Of a DNA stretch of 64,000 nt, positions 930 through 59,309 are shown piece after piece; positions within the stretch are counted from its first letter, which is position 1; every line of letters begins with the position of its first letter. Source of the stretch: Struthio camelus (lineage: Eukaryota > Chordata > Aves > Struthioniformes > Struthionidae); contig NC_090954.1 of NCBI RefSeq assembly GCF_040807025.1, positions 12,348,501-12,412,500 of the forward strand, in the 5' to 3' direction. The notes beneath the pieces were generated by a model. That model was not told where the DNA came from and searched no databases. It saw only the letters and a program-made list of their open reading frames with translations. Made by a program: the position numbers and the translations under genes.

Positions 930-1293
930 ATGCGCCGCAGCCCCCCGCCGGGGCCGGGCTGCCCCCGCCGGGGCCGCAGCCCCTCGCGGCCGCCGGCGCT
1001 TCGCCCCGCGGCTGGCGGCAGCGCCGACCTGCTGCGGTGCCCCTGCTGCCGCCTGGTCCTCTGGGAGCCGGTGACCGTGTGCTGCGGGCACTCCTTCTGC
1101 GAGCCGTGCCTGGGGCCGGCCCTGCCCGCCCGCTGCCCCGTGTGCCAGCAGCGGCTGCGGCTGCTGGGCGTCGGGGCGGCGCGGCGCAGCGTGGTGCTCT
1201 GCGGCCTCCTGGAGAAGTGCGCGGCCGGCGAGCGGCGGCCGGGGCGGGCGGCCCGCGCCCGGCTGCGGGCGGCTCGCGAAGGCGTCGAGCTGG
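930..1293 (+). CDS. LONRF: LONRF exon 1: start codon and first RING finger
   Basis: It encodes residues 1-121 plus one base of codon 122. The ATG has G at -3, and the frame is closed by TAA at 777-779. The N-terminus is only about 35 residues, rich in Arg and Pro. The RING ligands are C37, C40, C52, H54, C57, C60, C69 and C72 (CPCC...[10 protein letters not shown]...CPVC). LONRF1-3 normally carry a TPR before this RING, and none is encoded here. The donor is CTGG|GTAAGC at 1294, phase 1. Confidence 0.93.
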
Positions 1294-4200
1294 GTAAGCG
1301 CGAGGGGCTGCGGCGGCCGCGGGGTCCCAGCGTGTCCCCAGCCTGGCCCCGCGGGCGGGCGGGCGGGGGCCCCGGCGGGCCGCGTCGGCCTGGCAGCGCG
1401 CTGCCCGCCCCGGCTGCCCAGCCCGCAGCTGGGAGCCCCGCGGAGTTTGTCAGGGCTGCGCGGAAGCGCTGGACGGGGAGGCGGAGGGGGGAGCCGGCCG
1501 CTGGGCGTTTCTCCCGTGTCCGCAGGTGCAAGGGGCTCGTCCTCAGCCTCCCGCCGGAGCAGCAGGACCTTGCAGGGAGATCCGCAGAAGCGGGACGCAG
1601 AGGCTGTGAGCTTTCCCTCTGCTTGGAGTGGCCGGCTCTCCTCTCCCTGCACTGGGGCATCTTCCCAGGCACAGGTTGCTCTCCTTCATGTGCTTTGCCT
1701 TTCTGCCAGGCTTCCTGGGACTGTTGGAGGGGACGGTTGGTGGGGGCAAGCCCCACGGCTCATTGCTGGCAATCAGGCTGCAGACAGGGCAGAGCAGCGC
1801 GTGCCCTGTTGCCCGCGTGCGTGGGGTGTGAACTGGGCAGCTGGAGAGAAATAGCTGCACATTTAAAGCAAAGAGCTCAGCGGCCTCCTGGGGGCATCCA
1901 GCAATATTTCTGGGCCAGAGGAAGAGCTCAGCCCAGCCAGGCCCCAGGGTGGTGCGACGATTATATAAAACGGTTGGGACTCTTCCAGTCCGGGACAGAT
2001 GTGCCTGAGCCCCCGGAGCCTGGCGAGAGCACAGCCTTGGCCAGGCTTCGGGGCCAGCCCGCTCACCCCGCGGTGTGGCAGGGCCTCCCCGGCCGCTTCT
2101 GGGACAGGCTCCCATGAGACCTTTGCCTGCAGGATCAGGATTGGGCCCAGGGGGCTTTGTCTGCTTTCATGTGAGGCTGCAAGTGGGTTTTGTGGAGCGT
2201 TCTGGTTAAATAAAAGGGGTTATACAATGTGTCTGGAGGCACAGGGAGTTGGGGCGGTGGAGGCAAAAGGTCCTTTCTAGATGTGCGTTTCTATGGCAGC
2301 AGCCAGCTTGCGTTGCAGGGCGCAGACACTTAATTCTCAGTCGGTGCAAGACAAGCGCTGGAGGTAAGGCTATGTCTGAAAGTAAGGGACCGAGCGGGCC
2401 AGCAGTTCCTGATGCTGGGAGCAGGGCCCTTTGTGCAACACCCTAAAGCATTCATTTTACATGCTGTGCACTCTTTGTTCAAAGCAAATGCACCTGCAAG
2501 ATTGTCTGTTACACTTTCCACTATTGCCAGGTTCAATTTTTTTTGTCTTCCTGGGGTATACCATTGCATATCTCCTTTAAAACAGCCTCTGTTTACTATA
2601 AAGAGCAAAATTTTGCAAGTTCTTTCCTCCGTCTTTCTTCACTACATGCACAGTCCTCTGAAGGACAGGGAAGTCGAGGTTGGGGCAAAGAGGAAATGGG
2701 AATTACAGCTGCGGTTCTTAAACATGTGCTTGCTGGTGTTGCTTGAACTCTGCCATGTGGGTGATGCTTTTGGGACATAATTTTTCAACTTCTGTGGTCT
2801 GCAGACCACTTTCAGGCTTCACAGCTTCTTTTGGGCTGCCCTTCGCTCTTCTCTACACGCTTTAACGTTGATAAATGCTGTATCCACAAGAATGCGTGGT
2901 TTTGGTGTAGCTCTGTGGACCAGCTTGCAGCGTCCTCCTCAGCAGTCCCCCGTCAGGAGCTGTTACTTCTGGCTTTGTACAAAACCCACAGAGAGCCTGC
3001 AAGCCCTGCCCAAAGAGCAACTCTCCTTGCTTGGGAGACTGCATGTCTAAAATGAATTGCCAACTTTTTATCTTCTGTTTTTTCTAAGTGAACAAAAAAG
3101 CACAGTGTAATGGGTAACACAGGAGGACTTCTAATGTGCCAGGAGCCTGGGGAGCGCTATCAGTCAGTCATCAGCTGGTGGGTCTGCCAGCTGGCTGATG
3201 TCCCTAATGTCTAATGATATCATAGGTCAGAAATAGCTGTGGCTGAAAAGAAGTGCAGAATTTGTAGCCCAATTTTACATATCTTATTTTCCCCAAATCT
3301 GTTACTTTATTGCCAGGCTGTGCAAACGTCTTGAATGTATGCTTGCTCGCGTGTTAAATAAGCCTGTAGACTTTGTACCTGTTTGTTCGTCTCTACCTGT
3401 CATTAAGTGCTGGAATAGTTCATCTCTAGGTCTGTGCCTGAGAGATGGGGGGTGGTGTAGTAAGTTCCCAGGTTTTCTGAATTCAGCCGTAAGGTCCCGG
3501 CTAAGATCATAAGTGAAAATAAGCTCCAAGTGAACATGCGTTGCTCGGCCGTGCGGCTCAGCGTGGCCAGCTGCAGCCCTGGCTCAGCAAGAGCAGGTGC
3601 TGCTGTCCGGATCACAATGCCGCCTTCGACTGCCGGCAGAGAGCGAGCCCTCGCTGTGCTCAGCGCCACGCTGTGCACGGGAGCAAAAGGAGGCGATAGC
3701 TGGGCACAGCCTTCCTGCGCCGTGGTAAGATGTGGTGGGCAGCTGAGCAGGTCATAGGGAGCCTGGGCACGGTGACAGCGGAGGCGGGTTTGGAGGAGTG
3801 GGCACGTTATCTGCAAAGCTGCATCTGGCGCAGGCCGGGCTTTACAGACCTGACTCTCCTCTAGATAGGAGCTGCCAACCCTTCAGCAAGGTGTTTCTGC
3901 AAAACCCTTTGCCACAGTAAATGAAATGCCAATGCCTGAAAATGGTTCCTCAGTTATGATGCAAGTTTGGCCTCAGATTTTCAGGAAGGCGGAGAGGAGG
4001 GTTTTCTGGCTGCAGCCTGTGCCTTGGCTTCTCTTTTCCGAGAAAAGAGGATGGGGAAGTGTTTAACACTTCCATCACGATGCCTGTACAGATTCCCTTG
4101 TTCTTGGGTTTTGACTCTTCACAAGGTAAAATGAGCCAGATTGCAATGTTGAAATAGGTTGCTGGGGAGGAGCTATGGCACAGCTTGTGTCTGATCATGG

Positions 4201-59174: not shown

Positions 59175-59309
59175 CTTCATCCGCTTTGATTCACTTCTGG
59201 ACTTGTAACAAAACTCGATTAAGGCAACCAGCATGGCTAGTCCGAGCCCACCGATGAGGATATAGAAAACCCCTGCCACATTGCTGAGACTCAGAGCGCT
59301 CGTCTTGTC
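59175..59309 (-). CDS. GRIA1: GRIA1 penultimate exon: last transmembrane segment (M4)
   Basis: On the minus strand the acceptor TTTTTCTTCTAG precedes GACAAGACG in phase 0. The 45 codons begin [13 protein letters not shown], the invariant sequence after the flip/flop exons of all AMPA receptors. The M4 helix follows ([20 protein letters not shown]). After it come the juxtamembrane Cys of FCYKS, equivalent to palmitoylated Cys811, and SRSESKRMK with the Ser816/Ser818 PKC sites. ILIGG and SRSESK are the GRIA1 forms; the other three genes have ILVGG and SRAE. The flip and flop exons should lie further along the minus strand (higher coordinates), but I find neither up to the window edge. Confidence 0.97.

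Follow-up and report, generated by a model that had tools for sequence, protein, structure and literature searches.

In mammals, the LONRF family consists of three isozymes, and one of these, LONRF2, is reported to serve protein quality control as a ubiquitin ligase with a preference for misfolded proteins (PMC10226518, available text). Outside mammals, a zebrafish gene has been named lonrf1l (PMC7734032, available text). This LONRF1-like gene could be the orthologue of the gene described below or a teleost copy of lonrf1. The string "lonrf1l" also occurs in the available text of PMC10226518, where it mostly denotes "Lonrf1-low" cells. The genomic region that concerns us here is comparable to the mtnr/gria/tenm paralogon, a fourfold region containing gria1-4 and tenm1-4, from whose conserved neighbourhood mtnr1d is missing in human, platypus and chicken; the word "lonrf" does not appear in the main text of that study, as far as it was available (PMC7541902). 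Our literature searches did not find the name "LONRF4". Searches joining LONRF with duplication or loss returned nothing on a fourth member, and those on GRIA1-4 ohnologs or on AFF/TENM/GRIA ohnologs likewise found nothing.

The window analyzed here is a stretch of 64,000 nucleotides of the ostrich, Struthio camelus (C13:12348501-12412500; genome of 1.45 Gb in 262 contigs). It contains a LONRF-type gene on the forward strand, running from an ATG at position 930 to a stop codon ending at 17297, and the 3' end of GRIA1 on the reverse strand. The LONRF-type gene was modelled with 12 exons that form a single open frame of 627 amino acids; all 11 introns are of the GT-AG type and the phases are consistent. 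The features, in window coordinates, are as follows.

930..1293, forward strand: LONRF exon 1, start codon, leader of 36 residues and RING1 (ligands within 1038-1145); gene model, ligand pattern, sub-threshold Pfam RING
5607..5725, forward strand: LONRF exon 2, TPR region; model, Pfam, counterpart in C4, C1 and C11
7569..7691, forward strand: LONRF exon 3, TPR region; model, Pfam, counterpart in C4, C1 and C11
8515..8658, forward strand: LONRF exon 4, divergent linker; splice sites, phase
9525..9660, forward strand: LONRF exon 5, divergent linker; splice sites, phase
10222..10315, forward strand: LONRF exon 6, start of RING2 (CSLC); model, paralogue counterparts
11979..12093, forward strand: LONRF exon 7, remainder of RING2; model, Pfam, paralogue tblastn and counterparts
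12806..12927, forward strand: LONRF exon 8, linker between RING2 and LON; model, paralogue tblastn and counterparts
13325..13483, forward strand: LONRF exon 9, start of LON; model, Pfam, paralogue tblastn and counterparts
14688..14850, forward strand: LONRF exon 10, LON; LON-family scan, model, Pfam, tblastn, counterparts
15348..15494, forward strand: LONRF exon 11, LON; model, Pfam, paralogue counterparts
17100..17297, forward strand: LONRF exon 12, end of LON and stop codon; model, Pfam, tblastn, paralogue counterparts
56539..56727 (coding 56542-56727), reverse strand: last coding exon of GRIA1, ending in ...LGATGL and a stop codon; PDB matches, sequence reading
59175..59309, reverse strand: TM4 exon of GRIA1; PDB matches, sequence reading

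The domains of the predicted protein are arranged in the order RING, TPR, RING, LON. The LON domain (Pfam PF02190) spans residues 411-606 (E 6e-27) and is directly preceded by RING2 (PF13923, residues 321-359, E 1e-13). TPR matches, both above cut-off (PF07719 and PF00515), lie within residues 128-191, between the two RINGs. RING1 was matched by PF14835 at residues 33-73 below the family cut-off, and the C3HC4 pattern of zinc ligands is complete in both RINGs. With LON, RING2, RING1 and TPR all present, the gene is a member of the LONRF family. None of the best 60 of 158 PDB matches to the protein is named LONRF. We rejected the possibility of a retrocopy on the grounds of the 12 exons with their introns and the exon counterparts in the paralogues, and that of a pseudogene on the grounds of the open frame and the complete zinc ligands.

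A scan of the ostrich genome for the LON family yielded nine matches from 16 candidates, which correspond to four LONRF loci, to cereblon on C14 and to a LONP-type exon on C10. The top PDB match of the cereblon exon is 4ci1, which we take to be the chicken protein. The scan may be incomplete, because no second LONP gene was seen in it beside the C10 locus; such a gene may be unassembled or may have been overlooked. A plain tblastn search with the window protein found relatives on C4, C1 and C11. The four LONRF loci are located at the following positions.

C13, 12.35-12.37 Mb: LONRF, the copy in the window
C4, 56.04-56.06 Mb: LONRF paralogue
C1, 151.85-151.89 Mb: LONRF paralogue
C11, 12.20-12.22 Mb: LONRF paralogue

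We take the C4, C1 and C11 copies to be LONRF1, LONRF2 and LONRF3, respectively, on the basis of human map positions and neighbours and, for C4, also of the sequence. Nine of the 12 exons (2, 3 and 6-12) could be modelled in all three paralogues; since the exon search itself required the phases of the window gene, the equal phases reflect how the search was set up and are not an independent finding. For the linker exons 4 and 5 (8515-9660), the same search, made with the window phases and similar lengths, gave no convincing counterpart in the paralogues. The copies were then compared over a core of 397-398 residues from which exons 1, 4 and 5 were excluded. Over this core, the window gene is 53.7% identical to the C4 copy, 49.9% to the C1 copy and 51.1% to the C11 copy, and the values among the other copies are 56.0% (C4-C1), 56.5% (C4-C11) and 66.1% (C1-C11). 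The LONRF1-type copy on C4 has the RING-TPR-RING-LON plan of the window gene and the nine exons under the same phases, and is its nearest relative in the quartet described below, but it differs in its chromosome, in a longer frame before RING1 and at roughly every second position of the core. The plan and the nine exons are also found in the copies on C1 and C11, which are grouped with each other in the quartet, opposite the window gene and the C4 copy.

Next, we considered the chromosomal surroundings of the four copies. A genome search for the ligand-gated channel domain returned 28 matches, and the four of these that were read are all AMPA-receptor pore exons, located on C13 (12.42 Mb), C11 (11.19 Mb), C4 (40.64 Mb) and C1 (206.96 Mb); for the C1 exon, the identification also rests on a PDB search with its peptide. 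The two other families compared, teneurin and AFF, were selected because each has four members in the GRIA paralogon. All 18 teneurin matches fall on the same four chromosomes (C13, 17.4-17.8 Mb; C4, 50.1-50.3 Mb; C1, 219.7-219.8 Mb; C11, 10.6-10.7 Mb), and so do all 16 AFF matches (C13, 2.2 Mb; C4, 11.2 Mb; C1, 151.46 Mb; C11, 14.06 Mb). For four genes placed independently, with chromosome length as the only weight, the probability that each of these chromosomes receives one is 8.2e-5.

The spacing between LONRF and the AMPA receptor gene varies greatly among the four chromosomes. The initial annotation had envisaged the duplication of an ancestral LONRF-GRIA pair. The distances on C13 (39 kb) and C11 (about 1.0 Mb) agree with a closely linked pair, but those on C4 (15 Mb) and C1 (55 Mb) do not, so that the tight linkage holds for only part of the set. 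The proximity on C11 matches that of human LONRF3 and GRIA3 as given in the initial annotation. The window gene might, alternatively, be one of the known genes LONRF1, LONRF2 or LONRF3 that has moved. Its domain plan, being common to all LONRFs, would fit such a relocation. However, the same genome holds three further LONRFs, presumably LONRF1-3, and two of these have paralogon members nearby: an AMPA receptor gene about 1.0 Mb away in the case of C11, and an AFF gene 0.4 Mb away in the case of C1. We therefore consider a relocation to be very improbable.

Quartet trees were constructed for LONRF, teneurin and AFF; each is based on this one genome and is unrooted, without an outgroup. For LONRF, the split of C13 and C4 from C1 and C11 was obtained in 200 of 200 bootstraps, with 19, 7 and 1 informative sites for the three possible splits and AU p values of 0.001 and 0.003 for the rival ones. 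The AFF tree, made from four exon groups, gave the identical split (bootstrap 100/100; sites 14, 5 and 1; AU 0.001 and 0.004). So did the teneurin tree, which was made from the three exon groups recovered from each of the chromosomes, after exclusion of two groups not found on C11 (bootstrap 98/100; sites 11, 3 and 2; AU 0.002 and 0.04), although the KH and SH tests (0.053) fail to reject one of the rival teneurin splits. The longest LONRF branches are those of C13 (0.63) and C4 (0.39), and long-branch attraction could therefore favour their pairing. In the teneurin tree, however, C13 and C4 have the two shortest branches, and yet the split is the same.

The nearest relative of the window gene in this unrooted quartet being the LONRF1-type copy on C4, the gene might be thought to be a younger, lineage-specific duplicate of LONRF1 (arisen, for example, in sauropsids) that moved beside GRIA1. 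The core identity of the two copies, however, does not exceed 53.7%, whereas that of the C1/C11 pair reaches 66.1%, and such a duplicate would have had to hit, by coincidence, exactly the chromosome missing from the GRIA/TENM/AFF quartet. We regard a recent LONRF1 duplicate as improbable. In all 200 LONRF bootstraps the distance between C13 and C4 exceeded that between C1 and C11, but no more than 162 of the 200 gave a C4 tip that equalled or surpassed the tips of both C1 and C11 in length. On the basis of these bootstraps, the split between the C13 and C4 copies is unlikely to be younger than that between the C1 and C11 copies. The comparisons within this genome support the proposal, made in the initial annotation, that the window gene is a probable fourth LONRF ohnologue: LONRF, AMPA receptor, teneurin and AFF genes occupy the same four chromosomes, and the LONRF, teneurin and AFF quartets are split identically. 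A fourth ohnologue is therefore supported both by the presence of four LONRFs on the four chromosomes of the paralogon and by a topology that LONRF has in common with teneurin and AFF.

The identity of the gene facing LONRF is clear from its tail of 107 residues, for which the top PDB matches are GluA1 chains that cover the full length (E 4e-59). Among the best 60 of 110 PDB matches, two GluA4-type chains also cover nearly the full tail, with E values of 1e-26 or worse, and the remaining GluA2-4 chains cover approximately its first 40-50 residues. LONRF (forward) and GRIA1 (reverse) are arranged tail to tail at a distance of 39.2 kb from stop to stop. Both genes and their strands are as initially annotated; the interval of about 36 kb given there equals the distance counted from position 20486, where an A[A/T]TAAA motif lies. 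As for additional genes in the interval, nine selected ORFs at 28-49 kb had no Pfam match at 0.01, and neither had one selected ORF at 63 kb; these are 10 of the 273 ORFs in the window. An Rfam search had no hit that reached the gathering cut-off. Two short tandem arrays are present in the window, at 371-489 (46 bp x 2.6) and 60503-60584 (41 bp x 2.0).

On the other side of LONRF, a FAM114-type gene is located on the forward strand of C13, about 25 kb before the LONRF start; its matches to PF05334 lie at 12.3224-12.3246 Mb, and a relative of this gene is present on C4 at 61.99 Mb. The gene order observed on C13 is FAM114 and LONRF, both forward, followed by GRIA1 in the opposite orientation. 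At human 5q33, FAM114A2 and GRIA1 are tail-to-tail neighbours. On this basis, LONRF would sit inside a conserved interval, which would suggest a simple loss in humans. The idea that LONRF came to lie beside GRIA1 through misassembly or contamination is opposed by the FAM114-type gene before it on C13, by the human position of FAM114A2 next to GRIA1, which would bracket LONRF within a conserved block, and by the absence of N from the window. We consider an artefact of this kind to be hardly credible. Between the FAM114-type gene and LONRF there is a block of about 11 kb (C13, approximately 12332501-12343500) with a GC content of 0.51-0.68 and 34-91 CpG per kb, compared with 7-21 per kb in the flanking kilobases. 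A reverse-transcriptase fragment of a LINE (PF00078), which we presume to be CR1-like, is located on the reverse strand at about 12345700-12346750, also upstream of LONRF.

As modelled, the window gene stands apart from its paralogues at the N terminus. Its model leaves 36 residues before the first RING1 ligand, and the C1 and C11 copies, like that on C4, have a longer open frame in this place. The pre-RING1 segments of C1 and C11 (5e-13) and of C4 and C11 (2e-6) are alike; for C1 against C4, no similarity below 0.05 was detected. When the three segments were compared by tblastn with exon 1 and the 5 kb upstream of it, only weak matches were obtained (best E 0.005), which were GC-rich and located on both strands. 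Unless an upstream first exon exists, the gene would differ in structure from the other copies mainly by its short N terminus. Since the leader is too short for the pre-RING1 segment of the other three copies, the choice of clients or partners may differ.

Two early vertebrate genome duplications would yield four LONRF paralogues, one of which would lie in the GRIA1 paralogon. We estimate the probability that the window gene is this fourth paralogue, kept in the GRIA1-FAM114 region, at roughly 0.92. The three-member family of mammals (PMC10226518, available text), together with the human map positions, suggests that the gene may have been lost in the human lineage. The gene is best read as a new member of a family that is itself already known, and databases may list its bird orthologues as LONRF-like.

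With both RINGs, the TPRs and LON present, a role like that of LONRF2 is the most likely one, and by analogy the window protein is most likely a working E3 ligase of protein quality control with a short N terminus. LON and TPR would hold misfolded or damaged clients, as reported for LONRF2 (PMC10226518, available text), and the RINGs would recruit a ubiquitin-charged E2, so that the clients would be marked for the proteasome. We give even odds to a broader picture, in which the gene would represent a fourth clade that has existed since early vertebrates, survives in birds and probably in further non-mammals and was lost in mammals; mammals would then be without one LON-type branch of quality control, and the short N terminus would have given the clade a different range of clients. 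If the window gene is indeed the fourth ohnologue, it completes the fourfold LONRF set, would receive a proper place and a name replacing "LONRF1-like", and would make it natural to compare birds with mammals in respect of a ligase of protein quality control.
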